The position numbers and the translations under genes were made by a program. A stretch of 64,000 nt of DNA. It comes from Pseudonocardia sp. N23 (GTDB lineage Bacteria; Actinomycetota; Actinomycetes; Mycobacteriales; Pseudonocardiaceae). The first letter of the stretch is position 1. Every line of letters begins with the position of its first letter. Shown piece by piece: positions 34,016 through 54,360 of this stretch. Location of the stretch: the NCBI RefSeq assembly GCF_002583555.1, contig NZ_BEGX01000029.1, positions 186,001 through 250,000 on the forward strand, read 5' to 3'. Below the pieces are notes generated by a model. That model made no database searches and was not told the origin of the DNA. It worked only from the letters and a program-made list of their open reading frames with translations.

Positions 34016-34056
34016 GTGAGTGGCGACGGCCGCTGTGGCGACTATCGCCACTCACG
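34016..34056. repeat. 41-bp palindromic intergenic repeat, copy 1
   Basis: Begins GTGAGTGGCGA and ends TCGCCACTCACG, giving 11 perfect base pairs and an imperfect extension to 18 pairs around a 4-nt loop. Copy 2 at 54320-54360 has the same length and 30 of 41 identical bases, all differences being transitions. It lies between a pseudogene and the alcohol dehydrogenase gene. Confidence 0.8.
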
Positions 34057-34120
34057 GGGGGGCGCTCACACTGATCGCGACGGCGGCGCTCGGCGTGGAG
34101 CCCGCCCGGAGGGAGACGCG

Positions 34121-35206
34121 ATGCCGGACACCGTCGAGGCCATGGTGCTCACCGAGGCGCGAGAGCTCGTCGCACGCGAGTTCCCGAGACCCGAGGTCGG
34201 GCCCGACGACGGGCTCCTGCGCGTGGAGATCGCGGGCATCTGCCACACCGACGTCGACATCGTCACCGGCGGCTACCCCACGCCTTTGCCGCTGATCATG
34301 GGCCACGAGATCGTCGGCAGGATCGAGGAGGTCGGCGCCCGGGCCGCGCGGCGATGGGGGGTGGCGACCGGGGACCGGGTCGTCGTCGAACCGATGGTGG
34401 CCTGCGGCGCCTGCCCGTACTGCACGGCCGGGGACAGCCGGTTCTGCGACAACGCCGACGGCTACGGCACCGTCACCTCCTCCGACGTCGCGCCGCACCT
34501 CTGGGGCGCCTACTCACCGCTGATGCACCTCGCGCCCGGCTCGGTGGTGCACCGCGTCCCCGCCGGGATGAGCGCCGAGACCGGGATGCTCTGCACCGTC
34601 GCGATCGCCAACGCCGTGCAGTGGACGCTCGCCCGGGGCGGGGTCGTCCAGGGTCACGACGTCGTCGTGCAGGGTGTCGGGCCGATCGGGCTGTGCTGCG
34701 TCGCCGCCGCCCGGGCCGCCGGGGCCCGCACGGTCATCGCCACCGGCCTGCCCCGCGACGTACTGGGCCGTGAGCTCGCCCCCGATTTCGGTGCCGACGT
34801 CGTGGTCACCGCCGGCGAGCAGGACGTCGTCGAGGCCGTGCGGATAGCGACGGGTGGGCGGCTGGCCGACGTCGTCGTCGACACCACGGGCAGCCCGCAG
34901 GCGCTGCGCACGTCGCTGGACCTGGTCCGCCGGACCGGGACCGTCGTGAGCGGCGGGGTCACCGGCAAGGACGTGCTGACACCGCTGCCGATGGACGTCG
35001 TGACGCTCAAGGAGATCCGGCTGCAGGGCGTGTTCAGCTTCGACAGCTCGGCGGTCCGCCGCGCGATGGCCCTCGCGGAGACGGGCCGTTTTCCCTTCGA
35101 ACGCCTCGTGACCCACCGCTTCGACCTGCACGACGCGGCGGCAGCCCTGGCGGCCGTGTCGAACCACGACCTCACGGACCGCCTCAAGGTCGTCCTGGTG
35201 CCCTGA
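34121..35206 (+). CDS. zinc-dependent alcohol dehydrogenase-like oxidoreductase
   Basis: 361 residues, MDR superfamily. Catalytic zinc ligands are in GICHTDVDIVTG (Cys) and MGHEIVG (His, Glu). The structural-zinc lobe has ACGACPYCTAGDSRFC, with four cysteines. The NAD-binding motif is QGVGPIGLCCVAAARAAGA. ATG 34121 has GGAGGGAG upstream. Substrate unknown. The gene stands alone between an intergenic repeat and a convergent small gene. Confidence 0.93.
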   Translation: MPDTVEAMVLTEARELVAREFPRPEVGPDDGLLRVEIAGICHTDVDIVTGGYPTPLPLIMGHEIVGRIEEVGARAARRWGVATGDRVVVEPMVACGACPYCTAGDSRFCDNADGYGTVTSSDVAPHLWGAYSPLMHLAPGSVVHRVPAGMSAETGMLCTVAIANAVQWTLARGGVVQGHDVVVQGVGPIGLCCVAAARAAGARTVIATGLPRDVLGRELAPDFGADVVVTAGEQDVVEAVRIATGGRLADVVVDTTGSPQALRTSLDLVRRTGTVVSGGVTGKDVLTPLPMDVVTLKEIRLQGVFSFDSSAVRRAMALAETGRFPFERLVTHRFDLHDAAAALAAVSNHDLTDRLKVVLVP

Positions 35207-35217
35207 CCCGGCCGAGG

Positions 35218-35310
35218 TCAGCAGCCGACGAGGTACAGCACGAACGACGCCACCAGGACGACGAGGACGACGACGACACGGCCGCGCAGCAACCGCTGCT
35301 GACGGGTCAC
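35218..35310 (-). CDS. possible 30-residue single-helix membrane peptide
   Basis: GTG 35310 opens a frame for a 30-residue peptide: a basic start (VTRQQRLLRGR) and one hydrophobic helix rich in Val and Leu (VVVVLVVLVASFVLYLVGC), ending in Cys and TGA. Positive-inside topology is clear. It lies 62 nt downstream of the L,D-transpeptidase gene on the same strand. AGGCAGGA touches the start codon, which is closer than ideal for a ribosome binding site. Coding status is inference. Confidence 0.45.
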   Translation of the reverse strand: MTRQQRLLRGRVVVVLVVLVASFVLYLVGC

Positions 35311-35372
35311 TCCTGCCTGGTCGGCGCCGGACTCCGCCCGTTACTCCGCAGCCCCGTCGGTTCGCGGCACCG

Positions 35373-36593
35373 CTACTTCGCCGCGCTGCCCGTCTGCCAC
35401 TGCGCCCAGGACAGCTCCCAGTCTCCGTAGGTGTCGCCCAGCGGGAGCGTCGGCCCGCCGGAGTTGGCGATCTCGACGACGTCGCCGATCCCGAAGTGGT
35501 CGAAGAACCACTGCGCGTTGGCGGGACTGAGGTTGACGCAGCCGTGCGAGACGTTGGCCCCGCCCTGCGACCCCACCGACCAGGGCGCGGAGTGCACGAA
35601 CTCGCCGTCGTCGGAGATCCGCAGGTCCAGGTCGACCTGCTCCTTGTAGTAGCCGGGCTGGCCCGCGCAGACGCCGTAGGTGCAGGAGTCCATGGTGATC
35701 GTCGGCTGCTTGTCGGAGATGACGTGCGGGCCGGTGTGCGAGGGGAAGCCGGGCGAGCCGAGGCTGATCGGCATCGTCTTGACCAGCGCGCCGTTCTGGA
35801 AGATCTGCATCTGCTCGGTCTTGCCGTCGGCCTTGGCGACCCAGGAGTCGTGGACGTGGATCGTCTCGGTGCGGTCGGTCTGGCCGTAGGTGCCGTTGCC
35901 GAGGTCGACGCCGAAGAGGTCGGCCTTGAGCGTGAGGGTGCTGCCGGACTGCCAGTAGACCTTGGGCCGGTAGTGGACCTCGGTGTTCGACAGCCAGTAC
36001 CAGCTCCCCTCCTGTGGTGGGCTCGACGTGACCGTCAGCGCCTTCTCGGCGGTGGCATGGTCCTTCACGGCGTGGTCGAAGCGCACGACGATGGGCTGCC
36101 CGACCCCGACGGTGGTCTGCGCGGGCGGCGGGATGAACGACGGGTAGGCGGTCCGCTCGGGCGCCAGGGTCGTGACGGTGCGGTCGTCGTGGTGACGGCT
36201 GCCGTCGGGGCCGAGGGTGTCGACGCCGACGGTGTAGGTGGTGCCGTAGCCGAGGTCACCGGTGGAGGACCACTCGGTGGCGTTCTGCGCGAGGTCGCCG
36301 GTGACCTGCTTGCCGTCGGACTTGTCGGTCATCGCGACGGCGGCGATGGTGCCGCCGGTGACGCTGAGGTGCAACGGGTCGCCGGGGTTGAAGGGGCCGC
36401 TGTCGGCGTTGGTGGCGACGACGGGCGCGACCGGCGCCGCCGGTCCAGCGGCGTCGCCACCGATGCCGGCCGAGAGCGCCTCCGCCTGTCGTGGCGACAC
36501 GATGACCAACGCGGCCAGCACGATGCACGCCAGCACCGCGACGCCCAGCGACAGCGTCAGCCCGGTCCGCACGCGGCCCGTCGGAGCTCTCAC
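35373..36593 (-). CDS. L,D-transpeptidase with Ig-like domains (LdtMt2-type)
   Basis: 406 residues. A signal anchor (residues about 8-35) is followed by two Ig-like domains and a YkuD catalytic domain. The active-site motif SHGCVNLS carries the nucleophile cysteine near residue 357, with the conserved His (FVHSAPW) 18 residues earlier. It makes 3-3 crosslinks in peptidoglycan outside the membrane and is the target of carbapenems in mycobacteria. GTG 36593 chosen; GTG 36605 is an alternative. Divergent from the nitronate monooxygenase gene across about 180 nt. Confidence 0.94.
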   Translation of the reverse strand: MRAPTGRVRTGLTLSLGVAVLACIVLAALVIVSPRQAEALSAGIGGDAAGPAAPVAPVVATNADSGPFNPGDPLHLSVTGGTIAAVAMTDKSDGKQVTGDLAQNATEWSSTGDLGYGTTYTVGVDTLGPDGSRHHDDRTVTTLAPERTAYPSFIPPPAQTTVGVGQPIVVRFDHAVKDHATAEKALTVTSSPPQEGSWYWLSNTEVHYRPKVYWQSGSTLTLKADLFGVDLGNGTYGQTDRTETIHVHDSWVAKADGKTEQMQIFQNGALVKTMPISLGSPGFPSHTGPHVISDKQPTITMDSCTYGVCAGQPGYYKEQVDLDLRISDDGEFVHSAPWSVGSQGGANVSHGCVNLSPANAQWFFDHFGIGDVVEIANSGGPTLPLGDTYGDWELSWAQWQTGSAAK

Positions 36594-36776
36594 GACAGTC
36601 CCCACCCACCCCTTCGGCCCCCGTCGCGACGGCCTACGGGTACAGACTGCCACCGTCGGGTGAGGGCCCTCCCGTGAGGCGGATCCCTTGTGACGCAACG
36701 AGAACGAACCGCGCGAACCTCCCCAACAGGGCTCGCGTGAGAACCTGGGACCGAGCGGGACGAACAGGAGCTGACG

Positions 36777-37823
36777 ATGACGGTGACGGCGCGGGTGGCC
36801 GCATTCTGCGAGCGGTTCGGCACGACCGTGCCGGTACTGGAGGCCCCGATGGCAGGCGCGTGCCCACCGGAGCTGGCAGCGGCCGTCGCCAACGCGGGCG
36901 GGATGGGCGCGAACGGCGTCGTCCTCGACGGTCCGGCCAGGATCGCCGACTGGGTCGCCCGCTTCCGCGGGCTGTCCGACGGCCCGCTGCAGCTCAACGT
37001 CTGGCTGCCCGACGAACCCGTCGACGCCCCCGAGCGTGTCGCCGCGGCCACCGCGTTCCTGGAGACCTTCGGCTCGCCGGGCGCCGACGCCGAGGGTCCC
37101 GACTTCGCCGCACAGTGCGAGGCGATGCTCGGCGCGGCACCGACCGTCGTGTCCTCGATCATGGGCCTGTTCGCGCCCGACTACGTCGACCGCCTGCACG
37201 AGCGAGGTATCGCGTGGTTCGCCTGCGCGACGACGCTGGACGACGCCTTGGCCGCGCAGGACGCGGGGGCCGACGTCGTCGTCGCGCAGAGCATGGAGGC
37301 CGGCGGGCATCGCGGGACGTTCGACCCGGCGGCCGCGGAGGCGACGACGGTCGGGTTGATGGCGCTGGTCCCCCGGTTCGCCGACGCCCTCGACGTGCCG
37401 GTGGTCGCCGCGGGCGGGATCGCCGACGGCCGGGGTGTCGCGGCGGCACTGGCGCTCGGGGCGAGCGCGGTGCAGGTCGGGACGGCGTTGCTGCGCTCGC
37501 CGGAGGCGGGGATCGACGCGGAGTGGTCGACGACGCTGGACGGCCTCGCGCCGGAGCGGACCACTCCGACCCGCGCCTACTCGGGCCGGTTGGGCCGGGC
37601 GGTGGCGACGCCGTTCGTCGAGGCCTGGGCTGCGGACGGCGGGCCGCGCCCGGCGCCCTACCCGCAGCAGCGGCGTCTCGTCGGGCGGTTCCGCCGGGGT
37701 GGCGCCGAGGGCGTCGACCGCGTGAACCTCTGGGCGGGCCAGTCCGCGGGCCTCGCCCGCGCGGAACCGGCCGGGCAGATCGTCACGCGGATGTGGGCGG
37801 AGGCCCGCGCCCTGCTGGCCTGA
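36777..37823 (+). CDS. nitronate monooxygenase family flavoprotein
   Basis: 348 residues, FMN-binding TIM barrel. VLEAPMAGACPPELAAAVANAGG is the N-terminal signature; QSMEAGGHRG and VPVVAAGGIADGRGVAAALALGASAVQVGTALL bind FMN phosphate. The family detoxifies propionate 3-nitronate or has related functions. ATG 36777 has AGGAG with 9-nt spacing. Monocistronic. Confidence 0.94.
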   Translation: MTVTARVAAFCERFGTTVPVLEAPMAGACPPELAAAVANAGGMGANGVVLDGPARIADWVARFRGLSDGPLQLNVWLPDEPVDAPERVAAATAFLETFGSPGADAEGPDFAAQCEAMLGAAPTVVSSIMGLFAPDYVDRLHERGIAWFACATTLDDALAAQDAGADVVVAQSMEAGGHRGTFDPAAAEATTVGLMALVPRFADALDVPVVAAGGIADGRGVAAALALGASAVQVGTALLRSPEAGIDAEWSTTLDGLAPERTTPTRAYSGRLGRAVATPFVEAWAADGGPRPAPYPQQRRLVGRFRRGGAEGVDRVNLWAGQSAGLARAEPAGQIVTRMWAEARALLA

Positions 37824-37859
37824 TCCTGCGAGCGGCTCGGCTCATCCGTTGCACGCCGC

Positions 37860-38324
37860 TCACGACTCCGCTGCGAGGAGGTCGTCCCCCTGCGCGACCG
37901 CCGCCGAGAGCCCGCGGTCGAAGCCCAGCGACAGCAGGAGCTCCATGTCGTCGCCGCCGGCGAAGCGGACCAGGATCGTCACGCGGGTGCCGCCGGGCCG
38001 GTCGGCGACGGTGATGCAGACACTCGTCGACGGCACCCCCGGGTCGCTCATCGTGAACTCGACCCGGCGCGGTTCGTCGACGTGCGACACGGCCCAGCTG
38101 CCCGAGCGTGGGCCGTCAGGGGTCGCGCAGTCGTAGGTGACACGCCCTCCCACGACGAGGTCGTGCTCGTGCACGGTCGCGGTGACGCCGGGCGGGAACC
38201 ACCAGCGTTCGAGCGTGCGGGGTTCCGCCCAGAGCCGCCACACCCGTTCGGCGGGCGCGTCGAACTCCGCGGTGATGGTGAGCGTCCGTGCGCTCGCGTC
38301 CTTCTCCACCGACACGACACTCAC
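37860..38324 (-). CDS. SRPBCC (AHSA1-like) family protein
   Basis: 154 residues. ITAEFDAPAERVWRLWAEPRTLERWWFPPG is the characteristic START at the N-terminus of AHSA1-like SRPBCC proteins, with a hydrophobic ligand pocket. It forms a coupled pair with the upstream ArsR gene (GTGA overlap at 38321-38324), a very common arrangement in actinobacteria. Function is unknown; the ArsR partner probably controls it. Confidence 0.92.
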   Translation of the reverse strand: MSVVSVEKDASARTLTITAEFDAPAERVWRLWAEPRTLERWWFPPGVTATVHEHDLVVGGRVTYDCATPDGPRSGSWAVSHVDEPRRVEFTMSDPGVPSTSVCITVADRPGGTRVTILVRFAGGDDMELLLSLGFDRGLSAAVAQGDDLLAAES

Positions 38325-38650
38325 GAGTCGTTCTCCTCCTCCAGCAACATGCCCATCCGGTCGACCCTGGCCCGCCAGACGTCCTCCAGCGCGTCGAGCA
38401 CGGCGCCGGCCCGCCGGAGCGCGTCGACGTCGCCGGACACGAGCTGTTCGCGGCCCTGTCTCCGCTTGGTGACGAGCCCGGCCTCGGCCAGCACGGTGAC
38501 GTGCTTCTGCACGGCAGCGAAGCTCATCGGGTAGCTCCGGGCCAGCGCGGAGACCGAGTGCTCGCCCTGCAGGGTGCGTACGACGATGTCGCGGCGGGTG
38601 CCGTCGGACAGCGCGTGGAAGAGCCGGTCGACGGATCGCCGCTCCCCCAT
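38321..38650 (-). CDS. ArsR-family transcriptional regulator
   Basis: 109 residues. Winged helix-turn-helix: LFHALSDGTRRDIVVRTLQ, then HSVSALARSYPMSFAAVQKHVTVLAEAGLV. No metal-binding cysteines, so it is of the non-metal, SRPBCC-linked type. ATG 38650 is preferred over ATG 38662, because the latter falls within the operator. It probably represses its own operon and the divergent reductase-like gene. Confidence 0.92.
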   Translation of the reverse strand: MGERRSVDRLFHALSDGTRRDIVVRTLQGEHSVSALARSYPMSFAAVQKHVTVLAEAGLVTKRRQGREQLVSGDVDALRRAGAVLDALEDVWRARVDRMGMLLEEENDS

Positions 38651-38653
38651 ATC

Positions 38654-38671
38654 TACAACCATGTGGTAGTA
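38654..38671. promoter_or_regulatory. candidate ArsR operator
   Basis: TACAACCA-TG-TGGTAGTA is an 18-bp inverted repeat with 7 of 8 arm positions matching. It lies directly upstream of the ArsR start and abuts TACGTT (38670-38675), the likely -10 box of the divergent gene at 38681. One dimer could thus control both directions. Confidence 0.55.
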
Positions 38672-38680
38672 CGTTACGCC

Positions 38681-39295
38681 ATGAAGCTCACCGTGATGCA
38701 GTTCGTGTCGCTCGACGGCGTGTGCCAGGGCCCCGGCGCCCCGGACGAGGACCTCACCGACGGGTTCACCCGCGGCGGCTGGCTCGTCCCGTTCCTCGAC
38801 GACCGTTTCCTGGAGATCGTCACCGCGTGGACGTGCGAGGCAGCGGCGTTCCTCTTCGGGCGTCGCACCTACGAGGCGTTCGCCCGCGACTGGCCGAGGG
38901 CCACCGACCCGGACGACCCCGTCGCGAGCAGGCTGAACGGCCTGCCCAAGTACGTCGCGTCGACGACGCTGCGCGACGCCGGCTGGGCGCCGTCGACGAT
39001 CCTGACCGGCGACGTCGCAGCGCGGGTCGCGGAGCTGAAGGCACAGCCCGGCGGGGAGCTGCAGGTGCACGGAAGCGCCCGCCTCGGCGCATGGCTCCTC
39101 GGCAGGGGCCTGGTCGACGAGCTGCGGCTGACCGTCGCGCCCGTCGTCGTCGGGGAGGGTCGGCGGTTCTTCCGGCCCGGCGACGAGCCCGCCGCGCTTC
39201 GCCCGCTGCGCCAGGAGACGACGCCCGCCGGCGTCACCGTGCTGACCTACGGACCGGCCGGTCCCGCGCGCTTCGGCAGCCACGAGGTGGCCTGA
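38681..39295 (+). CDS. dihydrofolate reductase family (RibD_C-like) protein
   Basis: 204 residues. LTVMQFVSLDGVCQGPGAPDEDLTDGF and FLFGRRTYEAFARDWP, then LQVHGSARLGAWLLGRGLVDELRLTVAPVVVG are typical of the DHFR-like RibD C-terminal family often paired with ArsR-SRPBCC genes. Substrate unknown; NADPH is the expected cofactor. ATG 38681. It is divergent from the ArsR operon. Confidence 0.92.
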   Translation: MKLTVMQFVSLDGVCQGPGAPDEDLTDGFTRGGWLVPFLDDRFLEIVTAWTCEAAAFLFGRRTYEAFARDWPRATDPDDPVASRLNGLPKYVASTTLRDAGWAPSTILTGDVAARVAELKAQPGGELQVHGSARLGAWLLGRGLVDELRLTVAPVVVGEGRRFFRPGDEPAALRPLRQETTPAGVTVLTYGPAGPARFGSHEVA

Positions 39296-39316
39296 GCCGC
39301 GCGCTGCACCCCGGGG

Positions 39317-39430
39317 ATGCACTCGAACCTGCGCCCGACCCAGCAGGGCACCGCGATCGCCAAGGACGTGTGGCTGCTCGGCACGGGTCTCGCCCTGGTC
39401 GCCGACGGCGTCCGGAAGCAGAAGGCCTGA
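39317..39430 (+). CDS. small protein of 37 residues, unknown
   Basis: ATG 39317 to TGA 39430. The C-terminal part AIAKDVWLLGTGLALVADGV looks like an amphipathic or membrane-associated helix followed by a basic end (RKQKA). No clear Shine-Dalgarno. It could be a real small gene or the end of a lost larger one. A GCCACTCACG half-arm of the 41-bp repeat follows the stop. Confidence 0.35.
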   Translation: MHSNLRPTQQGTAIAKDVWLLGTGLALVADGVRKQKA

Positions 39431-39460
39431 CGCCACTCACGGCAGCCTTCCCCTGCACGG

Positions 39461-39691
39461 TCAGTCGCGCTCTCCGCGCATCGTGAGGACGACCCGGAGC
39501 ACGTGGTCGACGGCCGCCGCGAACAACGAGCCGCGCAGCTCGTCACGGGCGGCGAGCGAGTGCGACGCGAACTGCAGCATCTCCTCCTCGCCGAGGCGCC
39601 GGACGACGAGCGCGGCGACCTCCTCCAGGTCGACCCCCGGGTTGTCGAGGCGCACGAGCGCGAACGCGACGATCAACTCCTCGTCGGACAC
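39461..39691 (-). CDS. small hypothetical protein
   Basis: 76 residues, helical and acidic (DEELIVAFALVRLDNPGVDLEEVAALVVRR split by short turns). No known motif. GTG 39691 has a strong GAGGAGG site at 5-6 nt. It lies 21 nt downstream of the dehydrogenase-acetyltransferase pair on the same strand, so it may be the last gene of that operon. Confidence 0.65.
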   Translation of the reverse strand: MSDEELIVAFALVRLDNPGVDLEEVAALVVRRLGEEEMLQFASHSLAARDELRGSLFAAAVDHVLRVVLTMRGERD

Positions 39692-39712
39692 CGCACACCT
39701 CCTCGGGGCCCA

Positions 39713-40606
39713 TCATCCCGGATCCGGGGCGACCCCCGACAGGGTCCGGGCCTCGATCGCACCCAGCACGGCGACCATGTCGTCGGCACCGCGCCCGGCC
39801 GCGACCGTCTCGGCGAACAGCTCCCGGCAGACGTCGATCAGCGGGGACGCGATGCCCACGGCCCGGGCGGCGTCGGTGACCAGCCGGGCGTTGTGGGCGA
39901 CGTCGGCTGCCGCGGCCTGGGCGGTGACGTCGCCGTCGACGAGCTTGGCCGCCTTGACCCGGGAGACGTCGCTGGCCATCGGGCCGGCGTCGAGCACCGC
40001 GCGGACGACGTCGAGGTCGAGGCCGTTGCGGTCGGCGAAGTGGAAGGCCTCGGCGAGCCCGGTGACCATCGTGACCAGGTAGAGGTTCACGGCGAGCTTC
40101 GTCAGCAGCGCGCCGGGGACCGCGCCGCAGGGCACGGTCTCGCGGCACGTCGGGGCGAGCAGCGGCCGGACCGCGGCGACGGCGTCGTCGTCCCCCGCGA
40201 GCATCGCGACGAGCTCACCCTGCTCGGCCGGCACCCGCGACCCGGACACCGGCGCCTCGACGTAGCGCCCGCCGGCGGCGCGGACGTCGGCGGCGAGGTC
40301 CTGGGAGAACCCGGGCGCGGTCGTGCCCATGTGGACGAGCGTGCGACCGCGGACGAGGCCGGCGAAGGTGGGGGTACCGCGGTGCAGCACGACGTCGATC
40401 GCGGCGGCGTGGGCGAGCATCATCAGCACGACGTCGGCGCGGGCGAACACCTCGGCGGGGTCGGCGGCGACGTCGGCTCCCGCCTCGCGCAGTGGCGCGC
40501 AGCGCGACGGCGTCCGGTTCCAGACGACGAGCGGCGTCCCGGCGCGGGCGAGCCGCAGCGCCATCGGGGTACCCATGAGACCGAGTCCGAGGAAGCCGAT
40601 CGTCAT
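39713..40606 (-). CDS. beta-hydroxyacid dehydrogenase family NAD(P)-dependent oxidoreductase
   Basis: 297 residues. [18 protein letters not shown] is the Rossmann motif, [10 protein letters not shown]-like ([14 protein letters not shown]) the substrate segment and [14 protein letters not shown] carries the catalytic lysine (about residue 170). Related to 3-hydroxyisobutyrate and glyoxylate/succinic semialdehyde reductases. Its start overlaps the stop of the upstream acetyltransferase gene (ATGA). Probably under the ATGAC-N4-GTCAT operator upstream of that gene. Confidence 0.93.
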
Positions 40607-41082
40607 GCCGGGATCGCGATCTCGTAGGTGAGCTCGCCCGCGTCGGACGAGGCGAGCCGGACGGGGCCGAGCGCCTGGGTCCGCAGCAGGGCGACGGCGG
40701 CGCGGTTGTCGGCGCGGACCGTGGCGCGGACGGTCCAGCCGGCGCGGGCGGGTCCGCCGAGCGCGTGGGCGAGCAGGCCGGTGGCGACGCCGCGGCGCTG
40801 CACGTCGTCGACGACCAGCAGGGCGAGGTCGGTGGTGCGCGGCCGCAGCGGGTCGTCGACGAGGTTGAGCAGCCCGACGGGTCGCGCGCCGGCCATCGCG
40901 ACGACGGCGTCACCTGCGAGCAGCCAGTGCCGGTGGCGGGTGAGGACGACGTCGGGGGTGAGCCGGTGGGCGGCGAAGCGCTCGGAGAGCGACCGTACCG
41001 AGCAGGCCCGCACCAGCATCTGGACGGTGGCGTCGGTGGCGGACGTCCAGCCGGTCACGAGGCGTTCTATGACAGTCGTCAT
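40603..41082 (-). CDS. GNAT-family acetyltransferase
   Basis: 159 residues. Acetyl-CoA binding motif: [23 protein letters not shown], and [18 protein letters not shown] at the C-terminus. Acceptor unknown. ATG 41082 falls inside a palindromic operator (41069-41082), so either the operator overlaps the first codons or the true start is GTG 41058. First gene of a two- or three-gene leftward operon. Confidence 0.85.
41069..41082. promoter_or_regulatory. TetR-type operator, copy A
   Basis: ATGAC-AGTC-GTCAT: perfect 5-bp arms with a 4-bp spacer at the start of the acetyltransferase gene. Same consensus as copies at 41122 and 42580. Confidence 0.6.
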
Positions 41083-41121
41083 AACCCGCTGTTCTACGCG
41101 CTCACCCCGTTGTCAGGCATC

Positions 41122-41135
41122 ATGACGCTCGTCAT
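41122..41135. promoter_or_regulatory. TetR-type operator, copy B
   Basis: ATGAC-GCTC-GTCAT, 21 bp before the ATG of the SCO6745-like gene. Its centre is 53 bp from copy A, about five helical turns, in the shared divergent promoter region. Confidence 0.6.
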
Positions 41136-41156
41136 ACCCGGCGACCCGGAGGACGG

Positions 41157-46847: not shown

Positions 46848-48389
46848 TCAGCCGTCCCCGAGCAGGTCGGCCCGCAGGACCCGCTTGAGGACCTTGCCCG
46901 AGACGTTCTTGGGCAGCTCCTCGCGGACGTGCACGGTCTTGGGCAGCTTGTAGCCGGCGAGATGGTGCCTGGTGCGTTGCACCAGCTCGGCAGTGTCGCA
47001 GGCCCGGCCATCACGGAACGTAACGAAGGCGGTGACGGCCTCGCCCCACCGGTCGTCGGGGACACCCAGGACGGCCGCTTCGGCGAGCTCCGGGTTGGCG
47101 GCCAGCAGCGCCATCTCGACCTCCAGGGAGAAGACGTTCTCCCCGCCCGACTTGATCATGTCCTTCTTGCGGTCGACGAAGTACAGGTAGCCGTCCTCGT
47201 CGGCCCGGGCGAGGTCGCCGGTGTGCAGCCAGCCACCGCGCAGCACCTCCTTGTTGACGTCGTCGCGTTTGTAGTAGCCACGGAAGACGTTGGGTCCCTT
47301 GACGAGGATCTCCCCGACCTCCCCGGGCGCGACAGGCTGGTCGTCGTCGTCGGCGATGCGGACGTCGAGGTACCACATGGGTCGCCCGAGGGTGTTCTCC
47401 CGATCGGCCATCTCGCCGACGAACTCGGTCACCGACACCATCGGCGAGGCCTCGGTGAGGCCGTAGGCGAACCACAGGTGTTCCAGCGCGAGCTTGTGCA
47501 TGACCTGCGCCGGGAACTCCCGGTTGTACTTCGCGGCCGCGGTGAGCACCGACCGCAGCGAGCTGAGGTCGTGGGTGTGCAGCTCGGGGTACTCCAACAG
47601 CATCTGCATGGGTGTGACGAGGATGCAGGCCTGCGTGACGCGGTGCTCGGCGATGAGCCGGCATGCTTCGGCCGGCTCGAACTGCCGCATGACGACGATC
47701 GGCAGCGCGCGGGCGAAGAACGCGTTGACGACCATGTGGAGCCCGCTGACGTGGTTGGTCGGCATCGAGAGCAGCGCGACGTCGCCGGCCCGCGGCGGAG
47801 CGTAGGTCAGGTAGGAGACGGTGTCCCAGCAGATGTTGCCGTGGGTGAGCACCGCACCCTTGGGCAGTCCGGTCGTGCCCGAGGTGTACATGATCAGCGC
47901 CTCGTCGTCGCTGTTCACCTCGACGTCCGCGTTGTCGGTGGCCGCAGCGGCATGCAGGTCGTCGTAGGTGAGAGCGCCGGGCAGGGTCGGGGGGCCGTCG
48001 TAGACGACGAGGGTGATGCCGGCCAGCTCGTCGAGCACGGCGGCGACGGCGTCCTGGAACATCGCCTCGACGAAGAGCACCTTGGCGTCGCCGTCGGTGA
48101 CGATGAAGCTGATCTCCTTGGGCGCGAGCCGCCAGTTGATCGTGCCGAAGACTGCGCCGATCCGGCCCGCGCCGTGGCACAGCTCGAGGTACTCGATCGA
48201 GTTGCGCCCCAGGATCGCGACGTGCTCGCCGAAGCCGATGTCGAGGTCCCGCAGCAGGTTCGCGGCCCGGTTGACGCGGTCGTCGTACTCCCGGTAGGTC
48301 CACCTGCGGCCCTCGTAGACGATCGCCGTCCGGTAGGGGTGCAGCTCGGCGGCGCGACGTACCGCCGCCGACATCGTCAGTCCGTCCAT
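46848..48389 (-). CDS. AMP-dependent acyl-CoA synthetase/ligase
   Basis: 513 residues, ANL superfamily. A3 motif MYTSGTTGLPKGAVLTHGN (about residue 170), A5 FAYGLTEASPM, A7 GWLHTGDLARAD, A8 YLYFVDRKKDMIKSGGENV and the C-terminal catalytic Lys in KNVSGKVLKR. It activates a carboxylic acid as acyl-AMP and then acyl-CoA; likely medium/long-chain or alicyclic. ATG 48389 has GGGAGG about 10 nt upstream. It is downstream of the TetR/SDR/Rieske genes on the same strand, 64 nt from the next gene, and probably in one catabolic operon. Confidence 0.94.
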   Translation of the reverse strand: MDGLTMSAAVRRAAELHPYRTAIVYEGRRWTYREYDDRVNRAANLLRDLDIGFGEHVAILGRNSIEYLELCHGAGRIGAVFGTINWRLAPKEISFIVTDGDAKVLFVEAMFQDAVAAVLDELAGITLVVYDGPPTLPGALTYDDLHAAAATDNADVEVNSDDEALIMYTSGTTGLPKGAVLTHGNICWDTVSYLTYAPPRAGDVALLSMPTNHVSGLHMVVNAFFARALPIVVMRQFEPAEACRLIAEHRVTQACILVTPMQMLLEYPELHTHDLSSLRSVLTAAAKYNREFPAQVMHKLALEHLWFAYGLTEASPMVSVTEFVGEMADRENTLGRPMWYLDVRIADDDDQPVAPGEVGEILVKGPNVFRGYYKRDDVNKEVLRGGWLHTGDLARADEDGYLYFVDRKKDMIKSGGENVFSLEVEMALLAANPELAEAAVLGVPDDRWGEAVTAFVTFRDGRACDTAELVQRTRHHLAGYKLPKTVHVREELPKNVSGKVLKRVLRADLLGDG

Positions 48390-48453
48390 GTTCAGCGGGC
48401 CTCCCACTTCGTCGGGGTCGGTGTCGCCGTGCTCCACCAGGTGTCGCCGTGCT

Positions 48454-48945
48454 CTACGGGCGGGTGGCGCGCTCCTCGAGCGCGAGGTTGTAGCGGGCGC
48501 GGCCCTCGAGCCGGGCGCGGCACTCGGGGGTCGCGTAGATCGAGTCGAGGTCGAGCAGCCCGCGGACGACGCGGTGGCGGCCGGCGCGGTCGCCGGGGCC
48601 GGCGACGCGGCCGGCCGCCCAGACCTCCGCGCCCTCGTAGTCGGCGCGGGCGCGGGAGAGCCCGGTGAGCAGGACGTCGGCGAGGACGGCGGCGTCGGGG
48701 CCGTCGTCGAGGTAGGGCCGGTCGCGCAGGGGGTCGAGGGCGACGAGGGCGTCGACGTGCGGGCCGGGGTGGGCCTCGGGTTCGGCGAGGAGGCCGGTGA
48801 GCAACGGGATGGTCGCCCGCGACATCGTCGCCACGGCCAGCGCGACCGCACCCGGACTGTCCGCCCGATGCGCGAGCTCCTCGACCCAGAACGCCATCTC
48901 CCGGGGCCCGCCCGTGAGGGACATCCAGGCCCGGTCAGTCGTCAC
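48454..48945 (-). CDS. hypothetical protein in the Rieske/CoA-ligase operon
   Basis: About 163 residues, mostly helical, no motif that I recognise. It has a repeated Arg/Asp/Leu character (ADVLLTGLSRARADYEGAE) and a C-terminal CRARLEGRARYNLALEERA. GTG 48945 overlaps the TetR stop by 11 nt; ATG 48924 is an alternative start. Its place between the regulator and the CoA ligase suggests a role in the same pathway. Confidence 0.6.
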   Translation of the reverse strand: MTTDRAWMSLTGGPREMAFWVEELAHRADSPGAVALAVATMSRATIPLLTGLLAEPEAHPGPHVDALVALDPLRDRPYLDDGPDAAVLADVLLTGLSRARADYEGAEVWAAGRVAGPGDRAGRHRVVRGLLDLDSIYATPECRARLEGRARYNLALEERATRP

Positions 48946-49546
48946 CGGCGAGCCCACGGATCACCACCTGTGCGTAGAGCCGGCCGATCTCGCGCGCGGT
49001 GAGGGTGCCCGGGTGGTACCAGTGGTAGGTCCAGGCGCTCATCCCGATGATCCCGAACGCGACGATCTTGGCCGACTCGATCGGCCGGAACTCCCCGCGT
49101 TCGACACCGCGTTCGATCATCCGCACGACGCGGCGTTCGAACTCGCTGCGCTTGACCTTGACGGCCTCGAACCGCTCGTCGGTGAGGAAGCGGTGCTGCT
49201 CGTAGAAGATGCGTTGCTGCTGCTGGTAGGCCTCGACGCCGACGACGATCTCCTCGATCAGCTCGGCGAGGGTCTCGGTGACGGGCCGGTCGCCGGTGGA
49301 GATGGAGTCGAGCACGTCGAGCTGGTGGTCGATGAAGGTGTCGTGGATGACCAGCAGGACGGCGTCCTTGCTGTCGAAGTGATGATAAAAGGACCCCTTG
49401 GTCACGCCGGCCGCGTCGACGATCTCCTGCACCGCCGTGGCCTCGTAGCCCTGCTTGTCGAACAGCTCGACCGCGGCGGCGACGATCCCGTCGCGCGCGC
49501 TGCGCCGCCCCGCCCGGGGGGCGGCCGGTTCAGCCGCCCGCGACAC
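48935..49546 (-). CDS. TetR/AcrR-family transcriptional regulator
   Basis: 203 residues. HTH: IVAAAVELFDKQGYEATAVQEIVDAAGV then TKGSFYHHFDSKDAVL. The C-terminal domain (YEQHRFLTDERFEAVKVKR; AYQQQQRIFYEQ) is of the KstR2/fatty-acid-regulator type that senses acyl-CoA. It lies in the operon and probably binds the two TACCG-NN-CGGTA palindromes upstream of the Rieske gene. Its start overlaps the SDR stop by 17 nt. Confidence 0.92.
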   Translation of the reverse strand: MSRAAEPAAPRAGRRSARDGIVAAAVELFDKQGYEATAVQEIVDAAGVTKGSFYHHFDSKDAVLLVIHDTFIDHQLDVLDSISTGDRPVTETLAELIEEIVVGVEAYQQQQRIFYEQHRFLTDERFEAVKVKRSEFERRVVRMIERGVERGEFRPIESAKIVAFGIIGMSAWTYHWYHPGTLTAREIGRLYAQVVIRGLAGDD

Positions 49547-50408
49547 GGCCGTCCACCTCCGACCGCCTCCGCACCACGGACTGCCGGCCCGTCGATCCCC
49601 TGGCGACGCCGGTCAGCCCGCGCGCCGCCGGGTCCCCGCCGACGAGGTCGCCGACGTGCGGGCCCGCCGCCGTGACCCCGCCGTCCACGTTGATCGACTC
49701 GCCGGTCACGAACGACGAGTCGGGCCCGACGAGGAACGAGACCACCGACGCGACGTGCGCGGGCTCGCCGATCTCGGGCCACGGCTGCACGGTGCCGAGC
49801 AGCCGGTCGAGGTGCCTTGCGCCGCCCCCGAGAATCGGCGTGCGGATGAACCCCGGGGAGACGCTGTTGACCCGGATCCGCCACGGCGCCAGCTCGACCG
49901 CGACCGCTCGCGTGAAGTTGATGACGGCCGCCTTCGCCGCCGAGTAGGCCTGCGGGCCAGCGCCGCCGCTGATCCCGGCGAGCGACCCGGTGTTGACGAT
50001 GGCCCCGCCGCACGCATCGGCTTTCATGATCCGTGCGGCGTGTTTCGTCCCGAGGAACACTCCGCGGCTGATCACGCCGAACGTGTACTCCCAGTCCGCC
50101 AGCTCGACGTCGGTGATCGGCCCGAACGCCCCGCCGACGCCCGCGTTGTTGACCACGGCGTCGAGCCGGCCGAAGCGTTCCCGGGTCGTGGCGACGGCCG
50201 CGGCGACGGCGTCCTCGTCGGAGACGTCGACGCGCACGAACGCCACCCGGTCGCCGAAACCCGCGTCGGTCAGCTCGGCCACGGCACGGTCGCCGTTGGC
50301 CTCGTTGACGTCGGCGACGACGACGCCCAGCCCGTCGCGCAGCAGCCGCTCGACGACGGCCCGCCCGATCCCGCTGGCGCCGCCGGTGACCAGCGCCGCG
50401 CCGGTCAC
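49530..50408 (-). CDS. short-chain dehydrogenase/reductase with C-terminal extension
   Basis: 292 residues. Rossmann TGGASGIG (residues 8-15), NNAGVGG, catalytic Ser in VNTGSLAG and YSAAK (Tyr, Lys). After the normal family end (GESINVDGGVT) there are about 45 more residues, basic and Gly-rich (RGSTGRQSVVRRRSEVDG). The extension runs into the TetR gene. GTG 50408 overlaps the Rieske stop (GTGA). Likely oxidises the product of the oxygenase or a beta-hydroxyacyl intermediate. Confidence 0.92.
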   Translation of the reverse strand: MTGAALVTGGASGIGRAVVERLLRDGLGVVVADVNEANGDRAVAELTDAGFGDRVAFVRVDVSDEDAVAAAVATTRERFGRLDAVVNNAGVGGAFGPITDVELADWEYTFGVISRGVFLGTKHAARIMKADACGGAIVNTGSLAGISGGAGPQAYSAAKAAVINFTRAVAVELAPWRIRVNSVSPGFIRTPILGGGARHLDRLLGTVQPWPEIGEPAHVASVVSFLVGPDSSFVTGESINVDGGVTAAGPHVGDLVGGDPAARGLTGVARGSTGRQSVVRRRSEVDGRVAGG

Positions 50409-51544
50409 ACCGCCTCCGCGACGTTGCGGTAGTAGTCCTGCAGGCCGATCTCGTTGCGGCCGTACACGATCTCGGGAAGCGCGCCGGAGCTGACGGTACG
50501 CTGGATGTTGGCCATCGTCGCGAAGTCCTCGCCGTACACGGTCGACTTGGTGAGCTCCCAGTTGCGCTGCCAGTGCCGGCGCGCCTTGTCGGTCTGCGGT
50601 TCCTGCTCCGTGGTGAGCCACAGTCCGACCTGGCACGACCCCGGATCGCCGGGTGTCGGGGTGAACCGCCAGACCTCGAGATGGTCGAGCTGCCACACGA
50701 ACACGGTGTTGGGGAACAGCACGTAGACGAGCGTGCAGTGCGGGAACAGCGTCCGGTCCGGCTCCGGTCCCGCGACCATCTCGGGGAAGGTGCTGCGCAC
50801 GACCGTGAGGCGCTGGTGCAACGGGTAGCTGCGGTAGGCCGACACGTTGGAGATGAACGCCGAGCCCAGCGTCTTCTTGTGCAGGAACGCCAGGTGGAAA
50901 AGCTCCTGGAAGGTGTTGACGCCGAACTTCCAGTTGAAGCCGAATGTCGTGGTCTCGCCCGCGTAGAGGTGACGGGCGTGCGGGGCGAACCCGGCCAGCT
51001 CGGCGTCGAGGTCAGGACCGAGGTGGGCGGCGACGTCGAGGTCGGCGCCCGCGGTCAGCCGCGCCCAGATCAGCCCGTGCCGCTCCTCCGTCGGGAACGC
51101 GACCAGGCTCGTGTCACTGTCGTCGAGGCCCGCGAAGCCGGCCCGGTCGACGGTGCTGCGGCAGTTCCCCTGCCGGTCGTAGGTCCAGGCGTGGTAGCGG
51201 CAGGAGAACACCCGCTGGTTCCCCGACGCCTCCTCGCACACCAGGTTCCCGCGGTGCCGGCAGGCGTTGAGGAAGACGCGGACGACCCCGTCGTCACCGC
51301 GGACGACCAGCAGCGGGATGCCCGCGATCTCGTCGGCCACGAAGTCGCCCGGCCGCGGGACCGCGGCCCCGGGGGCGACGACGAGCGGACGCTGCGTGAA
51401 CAGGGCCCGCTCCGCCTCGGCGCGCTCCGGCCCGACGATGTCGACGGTGCGGACGCGGCCCACGTCCGCGGCCATCGCCGTCGTGCCGCGGGCGAGGAGA
51501 TCGGCTATCTCGTCGATGAGGGCCAGCTCCGACGTGCGGTCCAC
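50405..51544 (-). CDS. Rieske non-heme iron oxygenase, alpha subunit
   Basis: 379 residues. Rieske [2Fe-2S] ligands: C95, H97, C115, H118 (C-x-H-x17-C-x2-H). Mononuclear iron ligands H217 and H222 (HLAFLH). The residue that bridges the two centres between subunits, Asp in most Rieske dioxygenases, is Glu 214 here (FQELFH), as reported for the carnitine monooxygenase CntA group. No ferredoxin, reductase or beta subunit gene is adjacent. GTG 51544 has AGGAAGG. First gene of the leftward operon. Confidence 0.93.
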   Translation of the reverse strand: MDRTSELALIDEIADLLARGTTAMAADVGRVRTVDIVGPERAEAERALFTQRPLVVAPGAAVPRPGDFVADEIAGIPLLVVRGDDGVVRVFLNACRHRGNLVCEEASGNQRVFSCRYHAWTYDRQGNCRSTVDRAGFAGLDDSDTSLVAFPTEERHGLIWARLTAGADLDVAAHLGPDLDAELAGFAPHARHLYAGETTTFGFNWKFGVNTFQELFHLAFLHKKTLGSAFISNVSAYRSYPLHQRLTVVRSTFPEMVAGPEPDRTLFPHCTLVYVLFPNTVFVWQLDHLEVWRFTPTPGDPGSCQVGLWLTTEQEPQTDKARRHWQRNWELTKSTVYGEDFATMANIQRTVSSGALPEIVYGRNEIGLQDYYRNVAEAV

Positions 51545-51579
51545 CGGGCACCTTCCTGTCGCGGACGGGCTCGTCGACC

Positions 51580-51591
51580 TACCGTCCGGTA
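51580..51591. promoter_or_regulatory. TACCG-NN-CGGTA operator O1
   Basis: TACCG-TC-CGGTA, a perfect palindrome about 36 bp upstream of the Rieske start, downstream of the probable transcription start. Confidence 0.55.
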
Positions 51592-51624
51592 TGCCGGCGA
51601 GGGATGGTTCCGTTGTAGCAACCT

Positions 51625-51668
51625 GTGGCCCGGCCCACAAGTCGCAGCCGCGGGCGTACCGATCGGTA
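51625..51668 (-). promoter_or_regulatory. Rieske operon promoter with TACCG-NN-CGGTA operator O2
   Basis: On the minus strand TTGTGG, 17 nt, TACAAC gives a reasonable -35/-10 pair. O2, CGTACCGATCGGTACG (51655-51670), is a perfect 16-bp palindrome just upstream of the -35. O1 and O2 share TACCG-NN-CGGTA and bracket the promoter, so a dimer pair could block it. The remaining region up to 51758 has a TAGCGT that may serve the divergent MFS gene. Confidence 0.5.
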
Positions 51669-51758
51669 CGGCTGGGATCGCGGTCGGGCTTCCGGTGCTC
51701 GCGACCGCGACATAGCGTCGACGGCGACACCGCGACCACCGTCGACACCGGGAGCCCG

Positions 51759-52925
51759 ATGACCACCGACGCTCCCACCCGCTCGGCGACGCCGTGGCGG
51801 ACGGTCGCGCTCGGCGCCTGCGCGCTCGCGACGGCGATGGGGATCGGCCGCTTCGTCTTCACCCCGATCCTGCCACTGATGGAGGACCAGGCCGGGCTGA
51901 GCGCGCAGTCCGCCGCCGCGCTCGCGACGGCCAACTACGTCGGCTACCTCGTCGGCGCCGTGATCGGGACGGTCGCGCCCGCCGCGATGCGCTCCCGGAG
52001 CGTCTACCGGCTGTCGCTGGTGCTGCTCGTGGCGGCAGTCGCGCTGATGGCGGTCACCACGAACGTGCCGGCGTGGGAGGTCCTCCGCGGTGTCGCGGGC
52101 ATCGCGAGCGCCGTCGTGTTCGTCGCGACGTTCACGACCGTCCTCTCCGACCTGCGCGGGCACGCCGACCATCTCGTCGGCTGGACGATCGGCGGCGTCG
52201 GCGCGGGGATCGCGCTGTCGGGGCTGCTCGTCGCGGTGGTGAGGGTCGTCGCGGACTGGACCGTCGCCTGGTGGGCGTCGGCGGCGCTGGCGGCGCTGCT
52301 CGCGTCGGTCGCGTGGATGCTGCCCGTGGGCGGTGACCCGGCGCCCGACGCCGCAGCCGCCGGCCGTCCACGGCGCCGAACCCGGCCGTGGTTCATGGCG
52401 CTGTTCGTCAGCTACTCGCTCGAGGGCGTCGGCTACATCATCGCCGGGACGTTCCTGGTAGCGGCGGTGCAGCAGAACACCTCCGGAGCCGTCGGCGCGT
52501 GGACCTGGATCGTCGTCGGGCTGGCGGCGCTGCCGTCGTGCGCGCTGTGGACGATGCTGATCCGTCGCTGGTCGCGGCCCACTCTGCTGCTCGCGGCGCT
52601 GGTCGTGCAGGCGGTCGGGATCGCGCTGCCCGCGCTCGTCGCCGGGACGGTTACGGCGGTCGTCGCGGCTGTGCTGTTCGGGGCGACGTTCCTGGCCGTC
52701 GCGACGATCTCGCTGCCCATCGGCACCCAGCTCGGCTTCGCCCGCTCGATCGCGGTGCTGACCGTCGGCTACAGCGTCGGCCAGATCCTCGGGCCGATCG
52801 TGGCCGCGCCGCTGCTCGGCGGCGGGTACCGGCCGGCGTTGCTGCTCGGCGCGATCGTGGTGGCCGCCGCCGCGCTCGCCGCGGCCGCCCTGCGCGTGCG
52901 CTTCCCCCACGAGCCCGCCGGCTGA
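51759..52925 (+). CDS. YbfB/YjiJ-family MFS transporter
   Basis: 388 residues, 12 membrane helices. GIGRFVFTPILPLM near helix 1 and the helix-2/3 loop RSRSVYRLSL fit YbfB/YjiJ. The C-terminal half contains YSLEGVGYIIAGTFLVAAV, the family marker. Substrate unknown; it may import or export the compound handled by the divergent Rieske operon. ATG 51759 with GGGAG. Confidence 0.9.
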   Translation: MTTDAPTRSATPWRTVALGACALATAMGIGRFVFTPILPLMEDQAGLSAQSAAALATANYVGYLVGAVIGTVAPAAMRSRSVYRLSLVLLVAAVALMAVTTNVPAWEVLRGVAGIASAVVFVATFTTVLSDLRGHADHLVGWTIGGVGAGIALSGLLVAVVRVVADWTVAWWASAALAALLASVAWMLPVGGDPAPDAAAAGRPRRRTRPWFMALFVSYSLEGVGYIIAGTFLVAAVQQNTSGAVGAWTWIVVGLAALPSCALWTMLIRRWSRPTLLLAALVVQAVGIALPALVAGTVTAVVAAVLFGATFLAVATISLPIGTQLGFARSIAVLTVGYSVGQILGPIVAAPLLGGGYRPALLLGAIVVAAAALAAAALRVRFPHEPAG

Positions 52926-52929
52926 CCGG

Positions 52930-53403
52930 TCACACGTCGCGGCCACCACCCTCCTCGTCGAGGATCGCGACGAGCCGGTCGAGGGTGCGCATCGCCTGCT
53001 CGAACTCGGTGGGCCCGACCCGGTCACCCCATGCCGTCTCGATCTCCGCGACCCGCCTACCGGCCAGCTCGAGGAGCTCCCGCCCCCGTGGAGTGGGCAC
53101 GATCAGCTTCGCGCGGCCGTCGGTGGGGTCGCGACGACGTTCCAGGTAATCCTTGCGCTGCAGGTCGTCGACGAGCTCGGCGCACGCGGCGAGGCTCAGC
53201 TGTGCACGACGGGCCAACGTCGTCAGCCGGACCCCGTCGACGCCGACGTTGCCGAGGACGGGCAGGTGCGCCTCTCGCACGTCGGTGACGCCGTGCTCGG
53301 CGGCGACCTCCAGCACGGCGTGCCGGAACCGCTGCAGCAGCCGCACGAGGACCTGTCCGACGGCGAGCCTGTCGGTGGGCAGGGGACGGGTTGACGGGGC
53401 CAC
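52930..53403 (-). CDS. MarR-family transcriptional regulator
   Basis: 157 residues. Winged helix: VDGVRLTTLARRAQLSLAACAELVDDL and RRDPTDGRAKLIVPTPRGREL (wing). GTG 53403 is preceded by TATGTT ending 8 nt upstream, suggesting a leaderless transcript. It is divergent from the alpha/beta hydrolase gene and the palindromic TTCCGAAGC array between them is its probable operator. Confidence 0.92.
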   Translation of the reverse strand: MAPSTRPLPTDRLAVGQVLVRLLQRFRHAVLEVAAEHGVTDVREAHLPVLGNVGVDGVRLTTLARRAQLSLAACAELVDDLQRKDYLERRRDPTDGRAKLIVPTPRGRELLELAGRRVAEIETAWGDRVGPTEFEQAMRTLDRLVAILDEEGGGRDV

Positions 53404-53424
53404 GATCGCCGAACATACTCCGGT

Positions 53425-53448
53425 TTCCGAAGCTTCGGATTCCGAAGC
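53425..53448. promoter_or_regulatory. candidate MarR operator
   Basis: TCCGAAGCTTCGGA (53426-53439) is a perfect 14-bp palindrome. TTCCGAAGC is repeated directly at 53425-53433 and 53440-53448, so a third half-site follows. Lies 22 bp from the regulator start and 20 bp from the divergent hydrolase ATG. Confidence 0.65.
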
Positions 53449-53468
53449 ATCTTTCGAGGGAGATTGCC

Positions 53469-54245
53469 ATGCGCATCGATACCGGGATCGGCACCGTGTA
53501 CGTCGAGGTCGACGGCGCCGGGCCGCCCGCCCTCCTGTGGCACAGCCTGTTCCTGGACGCGCGGCAGTGGGACCGCGTCCGCGCCACACTCGGCGCGCAC
53601 CGCACGCTCGTCCTGCTCGACGGCCCCGGGCACGGCCGCGCCGGCCGCCCACCACGCCGGTTCGGTTTCGACGACTGCGCCGACGCCGCCGCCCAGGTGC
53701 TGCGGGCCCTCGACCTGGGCCCGGAGGTCGACTGGGTCGGCAACGCCTGGGGCGGGCACGTCGGATACGCCTTCGCGGCCCGGCACGCGATACGCAGCCT
53801 CGTCGCGATCGCCGCTCCGCCGACGCCGCTGCCGCCCGCCCAGCGACGCAGGATCGCCCTGCTCACCGCAGCCTTCCGCGTCGCCGGAGCACGTCCGCTC
53901 ACCGGCCCGGTCGTCGACGCGTTGCTGTCTCCCACCGTCGACGCGGACACCACCACCCTGGTCCGGGAGGCGTTCCGCGGCGGTGACCGCGTCGGGATGC
54001 ACCGCGTGATGCGGTCGATGATGCTGGCGCGCCCGGACCTCTCGGAGCGCCTGGATCGGATCGGCGTGCCGACGCTACTGATCGCCGGGGCCGAGGACCC
54101 GATGTGGACGTCCGAGCGGGCCGCGCGCGCCGCGACCGGGCTCGTCGACGGCCGGGTCGTGACGATCCCCGGGGCCGGTCACATCCCGCCGCTGGAGCGT
54201 CCGGCGGAGACCGCCGCCGCGATCCTCGAGCTCTGGAAGGCTTGA
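53469..54245 (+). CDS. alpha/beta hydrolase-fold protein with Ala at the nucleophile position
   Basis: 258 residues. The fold is intact: LLWHSLFLDARQWD, LLDGPGHGRAG, AGAEDPMWT (acid) and GAGHIPPLERP (His). The nucleophile elbow reads WVGNAWGGHVGY, with Ala 93 (GCC) where Ser is expected in GNSWGG. It may be a binding protein, or the residue is naturally Ala in this subfamily. ATG 53469 has GAGGGAG. Controlled by the divergent MarR. Confidence 0.88.
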   Translation: MRIDTGIGTVYVEVDGAGPPALLWHSLFLDARQWDRVRATLGAHRTLVLLDGPGHGRAGRPPRRFGFDDCADAAAQVLRALDLGPEVDWVGNAWGGHVGYAFAARHAIRSLVAIAAPPTPLPPAQRRRIALLTAAFRVAGARPLTGPVVDALLSPTVDADTTTLVREAFRGGDRVGMHRVMRSMMLARPDLSERLDRIGVPTLLIAGAEDPMWTSERAARAATGLVDGRVVTIPGAGHIPPLERPAETAAAILELWKA

Positions 54246-54319
54246 CCGGCGACGCACCGACGACCCGCTGCGAGCTGCGACGCCCTCCCACACGACGGAC
54301 GACGACGCCTCCGGCGCTC

Positions 54320-54360
54320 GTGAGTGGCAATGGTCGTCATGGCGACCATTGCCGCTCGCA
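54320..54360. repeat. 41-bp palindromic intergenic repeat, copy 2
   Basis: Begins GTGAGTGGCAATGGTCG and ends CGACCATTGCCGCTCGCA; 18 base pairs (three G-T) around a 4-nt loop. It sits 3 nt before the stop of the convergent LLM gene and 74 nt after the hydrolase stop. See copy 1. Confidence 0.8.

Follow-up and report, generated by a model that had tools for sequence, protein, structure and literature searches.

The 64,000-nt stretch of Pseudonocardia sp. N23 analysed here, referred to below as the window (contig NZ_BEGX01000029.1, positions 186,001 to 250,000), carries two copies of a palindrome, copy 1 at 34016..34055 and copy 2 at 54320..54359 of the plus strand, which belong to a family occupying at least 87 distinct places in the 6.54-Mb N23 genome. 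We propose that these repeats are a non-autonomous dispersed palindrome of Pseudonocardia, resembling the repetitive extragenic palindromic (REP) sequences, that has spread by copying and is overwritten at sites shared between species, a reading to which we give a probability of about 0.75. The features that set the family apart are its long and often perfect palindrome, the absence of the Y1_Tnp transposase domain (PF01797) and evidence that copies at shared sites have been overwritten.

The genome-wide count, a lower bound, was obtained with a covariance model built on 35 copies, whose matches numbered at least 150 before they were merged by hand into distinct places, and it lies well above the ten or so copies below which the original prediction of a dispersed REP-like family was to be abandoned. 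Searching the genome with 171 bases around copy 1 yielded 72 matches, a figure that counts many places on both strands. A weight matrix was run over 646 kb of N23 DNA, which comprises the window and stretches retrieved around known copies. Of its 83 hits 82 scored at least 30, whereas 1 Mb of first-order shuffled sequence scored no higher than 2.9, a background so much lower that the matches are not due to chance. The ungapped matrix missed two copies with a one-base gap, and the scanned set therefore holds 82 of the 84 copies in hand.

The repeat unit is a 40-nt palindrome with 18-pair arms and a 4-nt centre, preceded by an unpaired TC and usually followed by AGG, the N23 consensus being GGTC-GTGAGTGGCGATGGTCGC-NNNN-GCGACCATCGCCACTCAC-AGGG; the 41-bp element first described is real as a repeat, with the palindrome proper confined to 40 nt around the 4-nt centre. 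The tags give the palindrome an orientation: in 35 aligned N23 copies a C stands directly before it in all 35 and a T before that in 33, while an A follows directly in 27 and then a G in 34. Among the 82 scanned copies TC is kept in at least 72, with GGTC in 40, CCTC in 13, GCTC in 9 and CGTC in 4. By its 40 nt and its at least 87 places the family falls among REPs in the broad sense of short palindromes (20-60 bp) at high copy number. The single arm GTGAGTGG was considered as the repeat unit and rejected, since only 17 such arms occur outside full copies in the 646 kb against 9 expected; a facing stop codon is no more than 15 nt away from 11 of the 17, and three are inside genes. Variant or decaying copies were seen at three loci (L101, 3054; L102, about 8230; L011, about 4145); one variant matches the model with some 12 nt added, and in others the middle of the hairpin is shortened or deleted. 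At L074 (about 3083-3140) an 18-nt tandem repeat, approximately GACGTCGGCGCCACTCAC, adjoins a full copy and resembles an amplified palindrome end.

Both arms covary far beyond shuffled expectation, in N23 and across Pseudonocardia, as had been anticipated. In a first alignment, built from 35 N23 copies that BLAST and consensus matching had gathered with no structure model involved, pairing holds in 96.6% of 612 cells and both-sided change occurs in 7 of the 18 pairs, with 18 double-change cells where shuffles average 4.2; none of 500 shuffles matched the paired, double-change and covariation values, and one matched the number of pair types. A second alignment of 46 copies (45 distinct) from N23 and at least 12 other Pseudonocardia genomes has 98.8% of 810 cells paired and double changes in 12 of 18 pairs (133 double-change cells against 34.7 in shuffles, a value reached by 0 of 500), and it leans towards pairing because its members were mostly chosen through the structure model. 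The outer bases of the palindrome are near-invariant. Recomputation for the window copies gave the figures originally noted: 30 of the 41 positions agree between the 41-mers at 34016-34056 and 54320-54360, the remaining 11 all differ by a transition, and positions 10 and 31 vary jointly from G-C to A-T. The 18-pair hairpin claimed for both copies holds for copy 2 (15 Watson-Crick pairs and three G-T) but not for copy 1, which has 15 Watson-Crick pairs, one G-T and two C-A mismatches (positions 12 and 15). Taken by itself, covariation between the arms of a DNA palindrome does not prove that an RNA structure is under selection.

Among 60 genomes searched, N23 included, 26 have matches, namely N23, 24 of 35 from the same genus and, weakly, one of 24 from other genera. 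A search of 197 genomes of the class, again with N23, found matches in 16, all except N23 at 38 bits or less, and among the sampled members of the class the family is confined to Pseudonocardia. Zero counts in 11 of the 35 same-genus genomes may reflect dialects that escape the model. Such arm dialects are apparent in the best-scoring copies of the other genomes, designated here by labels: G010 has arm GAGTGGTCC in five of five, G012 has GAGTGTCGC and GAGTAGCGC among five, G020 has GAGTAACGC in two of four, and GTGCGCGG ends occur in five of five in G013 and three of five in G026, with mixed arms in G033. Minority arm types are found within one genome in 3 of 32 copies (G065) and 1 of 97 (G023), and the G023 copies are more alike than those of N23 (4.03 against 6.87 copy-to-copy differences). 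Pair 13/28 is mostly A-T in G023 (67 of 96 copies) and mostly G-C in N23 (48 of 82). An impression that copies avoid the origin came from partial lists and was dropped; in G017, with dnaA at 1504, copies among the matches listed span 96 kb to 6.78 Mb. Plasmids and phages gave no match to a 48-base query in distant blastn, a search with little power at so short a length.

The case for overwriting comes from sites shared between genomes. With both flanks matched, the G023 site is occupied for 12 of 14 N23 copies and the N23 site for 11 of 20 G023 copies, at least four of the nine absences in N23 being shortened, gapped or decayed copies. Requiring at least one anchored flank, we collected 34 orthologous pairs (15 N23-G023, 14 N23-G065 and 5 G065-G023), and with one misaligned pair (L101) left out of the difference test, orthologs differ at 6.0 of 40 bases against 6.66 permuted for N23-G023 (P 0.028), 6.71 against 7.39 for N23-G065 (P 0.096) and 4.6 against 4.83 for G065-G023 (P 0.46). 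A slight ancestral identity persists in one comparison only, N23-G023. Orthologous elements are 83-89% alike, as against 65-76% for their 20-nt flanks. At one site (L156:5341/L121:6881) the arm types are GTTATTGGC and GATAGTCGC, separated by three double changes and no single change, while the last 19 nt of the left flank are identical; at a second (L020:12485/L150:15504), where the pair lies in opposite orientation, the arm types differ by four double changes, again with no single one. The weak likeness of orthologs, taken with the differing arm type at some sites, points to copying or overwriting beyond structural selection alone. The selection on structure originally invoked is only one possible reading; the scant copy-specific identity of the orthologs and the difference of a whole arm type at some sites suit copying or overwriting no less well. 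The arm-type swaps are most simply read as copying between sites, and selection or arm-to-arm template switching could contribute to the remaining pair changes.

Several points weigh against a history of copying and overwriting. The orthologous pairs are few, were anchored without a reciprocal filter and come from regions chosen around copies; orientation is kept in 29 of the 34, and together with the small N23-G023 ortholog memory this means that inheritance with mutation explains part of the pattern. None of seven candidates for an empty site or for a target duplication, the latter a mark of miniature inverted-repeat transposable elements mobilised by a DDE transposase, is clean, and several hold remnants; the mobility of the copies is something we infer. 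No transposase was seen by eye between close copies in 22 pairs less than 2.5 kb apart, 20 of which have called genes between them. The REP-associated tyrosine transposase (RAYT) that the original prediction proposed to look for was sought through Y1_Tnp and did not materialize: the domain has no match in the N23 genome and none in nine genomes, N23 among them, with at least 94 model matches each (G000, G010, G012, G017, G023, G025, G029, G065 and G074). It was detected in 5 of 60 Pseudonocardia genomes, N23 included (G003, G008, G015, G020 and G022); copy counts and Y1_Tnp results are both at hand for G000-G035, G065 and G074. As Y1_Tnp is absent where the elements are numerous, we rejected a RAYT as the driver, and in the nine genomes the REP-like family exists without the Y1 transposase to which the best-studied REPs are attributed.

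A first alternative, unlikely in our judgement, is that template switching within an imperfect palindrome copies arm onto arm and so yields covariation without selection or copying between sites. It accords with the frequency of self-complementary 4-base centres (30 of 82 copies in N23, 50 of 96 in G023 and 16 of 34 in G065), where in N23 the outer centre pair shows a moderate excess over independence (53 against 39.1 expected) and the inner pair a small one (38 against 32.7), and with the scarcity of half-changed pairs at positions 13/28 in G023 (AT 67, GC 25, GT 3 and AC 1 of 96). The same pair in N23, however, is half-changed in 18 of 82 copies, so that perfecting is not universal, and template switching leaves unexplained one new state in most copies of one genome, the arm types common to dispersed copies of a species and the simultaneous appearance of three or four paired transversions.

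The repeats are concentrated at the 3' ends of genes, as is typical of REPs in the broad sense. Genes were called with a codon-usage caller; Pfam supports three of its calls in the window and, among the 12 genes with a copy inside, 8. The 82 scanned N23 copies comprise 11 inside genes and 71 intergenic ones, 36 of the latter between convergent genes (null 18%), 28 in tandem gaps and 7 in divergent gaps (null 37%), where the null consists of intergenic points in the regions fetched around copies; convergent counts vary with the training gene set (36/84, 34/82 and 36/82). A facing stop codon lies within 13 nt of 51 of 71 intergenic copies in N23 (null 9%), 70 of 91 in G023 (8%) and 25 of 32 in G065 (7%). 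Some of these stops, 17, 24 and 10 respectively, are a TGA supplied by the palindrome itself at positions 2-4, which cannot arise under the location null; with these removed, 34/71, 46/91 and 15/32 remain. A lesser peak of stops at -14 corresponds to TAG at positions 12-14, in copies with an A at 13. The original statement that both full copies follow stop codons or decayed genes holds in substance, most of the family abutting stops, but copy 1 is among the looser cases, 28 nt past a short, weakly supported open reading frame (ORF).

Fifteen copies (11 in N23, three in G023 and one in G065) lie inside 12 predicted genes, and all 15 are in frame 0, where they read V/M-SG...; a second open frame is available in 11, which puts the odds of this one-frame bias at about 1 in 2,000 if two open frames are equally likely. 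The eight Pfam-matched hosts are a nonribosomal peptide synthetase (NRPS), a FabG-type reductase, a GMC oxidoreductase, a biotin-dependent carboxylase, an OYE-like oxidoreductase, a HAD-like protein, an ABC transporter ATPase and an acyl-CoA synthetase-like enzyme, the hosts at L024, L094, L132 and L136 standing outside the Pfam check. Some copies lie near a gene end (L132, C-terminal; L024 and L154, N-terminal, with an uncertain start codon), and those of L107 and L136 are orthologs. On contig C28 (L015, L086 and L094), the NRPS ORF holds four in-frame copies and a further long ORF, with NRPS-like motifs, holds one. The FabG-type gene has its nearest orthologs in Pseudonocardia sp. SCN 73-27 (91%) and P. 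sulfidoxydans NBRC 16205 (86%): the SCN 73-27 copy sits at the same base as in N23, has the other arm type and bears tags that score better in the direction opposite to that of N23, and the P. sulfidoxydans copy lies 9 nt further on. No copy was found in 11 other FabG orthologs, one of which (L201) aligned poorly, nor in the single GMC ortholog aligned (G017, L252). Beside the in-gene copy of L024, a short tandem repeat (about 5950-6002) reads VSNPPVSNPPVSGDGR near the predicted protein's N-terminus.

These placements bear on a second alternative, which we consider improbable, namely that the repeats are fixed 3'-end RNA hairpins, acting as bidirectional terminators or RNA-stability elements, immobile, selected for structure and subject to ordinary compensatory evolution. 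Their convergent, stop-adjacent placement and the orientation kept in 29 of 34 orthologous copies would fit such a role, as would the stable folds of the window copies with flanks (-34.8 kcal/mol and z -2.7 for copy 1; -43.0 kcal/mol and z -7.2 for copy 2). Fixed hairpins would not, however, be expected in frame within NRPS, FabG-type, GMC oxidoreductase and biotin-carboxylase genes, nor would a terminator need the sequence-specific outer bases and tags, and the differing arm types at one site speak against immobility. No intrinsic terminator, that is, a hairpin followed by a T run (U-tract), was found near copy 1 or copy 2, the two copies scanned for it; the common tail of the family is AGGG. 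A dyad-symmetric site of a dimeric DNA-binding protein, its specificity drifting between species with the sites following, is very improbable, since the self-complementary centres, near-invariant outer bases and species-specific inner arms that would suit it stand against gene-end and in-gene locations, a rarity of promoter-type gaps (7/71 divergent, null 37%) and the coexistence of minority arm types in one genome (3/32 in G065, 1/97 in G023).

Returning to copying and overwriting, we envisage that a copying process, its enzyme not found, would spread the repeats through the chromosome, and that copies would be retained where they are least harmful or somewhat useful, in or just past stop codons and above all between convergent genes. 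Now and then a copy might be retained within a gene, in the only reading frame whose product, VSGDGRxxDHRHS, is soluble. Copies at shared sites would be largely overwritten by sibling copies, as we infer from the arm-type differences, and species would consequently come to differ in arm dialect. A copy in place could form a very stable RNA hairpin from either strand, which makes a 3'-end role plausible, through RNA stability, attenuation or effects on translation termination. More tentatively, and at somewhat less than even odds, the family may be maintained by in-place, RAYT-independent overwriting at conserved sites, even coding ones, giving rise to the genome-wide arm dialects. If true, this would provide comparative support for an old proposal, reportedly made by Higgins et al. 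in 1988, that REPs evolve by gene conversion. The combination of shared sites, species dialects and in-frame copies renders the spread and uniformity of REPs, whether through transposition, gene conversion or selection, testable in close strains.

Within the window, copy 1 (centre TGTG, 65.9 bits with the covariance model) forms a modelled unit at 34012-34059 (+), with 4-nt flanks TGTC and GGGG. Upstream, a short weakly coding ORF (33799..33987, +; caller score 24.8), whose stop is the one 28 nt ahead of the palindrome, may be a decayed gene, and downstream lies a zinc-binding alcohol dehydrogenase gene (34121..35206, +; PF08240/PF00107). Copy 2 (centre CATG, 64.5 bits), with a modelled unit at 54316-54363 (+) and 4-nt flanks GCTC and AGGG, sits between convergent genes: an alpha/beta hydrolase gene (53469..54245, +; PF12697) ends 74 nt ahead of it, and the stop codon of a minus-strand luciferase-like monooxygenase gene (54364..55278; PF00296) lies 4 nt past it. 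The G023 genome has a copy at the equivalent site. There the G023 match starts at about 54305, just ahead of the palindrome, leaving the hydrolase gene (window stretch 53469-54319) outside, and the repeat may mark a rearrangement boundary. The two half-arms reported earlier do exist, 2-4 nt from called stops: GTGAGTGG (26581..26588, +) lies in the 14-nt gap of a convergent gene pair, 4 nt past one stop and 2 nt ahead of the other, and CCACTCAC (39433..39440, +; first placed at 39432) lies 2 nt past the stop of an ORF that is short and weakly supported. Each is probably a truncated copy. An Rfam scan of the window matched a single thiamine pyrophosphate (TPP) riboswitch aptamer (2734-2842, -; 65 bits against a gathering score of 54.3), and the repeat itself matched no known RNA family there.

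The DNA uptake sequence of Neisseriaceae is likewise a dispersed motif, found as inverted pairs at gene ends and with species dialects. It shares dispersal, gene-end placement and dialects with the Pseudonocardia repeat, in which, however, the whole palindrome is the unit and single 8-nt arms are few (17 against 9 expected in 646 kb). No description of the family was found among the open-licence PMC matches listed, and the passages available from a study with Pseudonocardia predictions of miniature inverted-repeat transposable elements (PMC12542641) contain none. REP-like repeats as such are already known in this phylum, judging from the available parts of two papers: one cites REP-like sequences of M. 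tuberculosis without conserved terminal motifs, in a main text that does not use the word Actinobacteria (PMC3733652), and the other tabulates predicted REPs for three Actinomycetota, besides giving a 15-nt rule that concerns REPs and the stalling of ribosomes in E. coli (PMC12306157). The ends of GTAG REPs often supply a stop codon (PMC3733652, in part), different REP classes occur in related strains beside orthologous RAYTs (PMC3686654, in part), and the REP doublets termed REPINs are treated in PMC3116915 and PMC8049555 (both in part). The Pseudonocardia repeats are likewise short dispersed palindromes near stop codons, some of which supply the stop, but they have NNTC and AGGG flanks rather than a GTAG tag, occur as single units rather than doublets, and have no Y1_Tnp in N23. 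With the Rickettsia palindromic elements (RPE), of which RPE-4 and RPE-6 of R. conorii are grouped with CGTC repeats in the available text of PMC3733652, they share in-frame palindromes inside protein-coding genes, differing in sequence and phylum and in that most Pseudonocardia copies are intergenic. The CGTC-tagged REPs themselves (Di Nocera et al. 2013, PMC3733652) are described, in the portion available, as lying mostly less than 20 bp from the 3' ends of convergent or tandem genes, with some copies inside genes and no dedicated transposase. Their 8-9-bp stems and CCA tail are not found here, where the arms are 18 bp and the tail is AGGG, and of the tag forms of that class (CGTC, TGTC or CCTC) CGTC is present in 4 of 82 copies and CCTC in 13, the tag being mostly GGTC. 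On the same partial text, both families consist of short palindromes that carry an unpaired tag on one side, lie at gene 3' ends and occasionally occur within genes.

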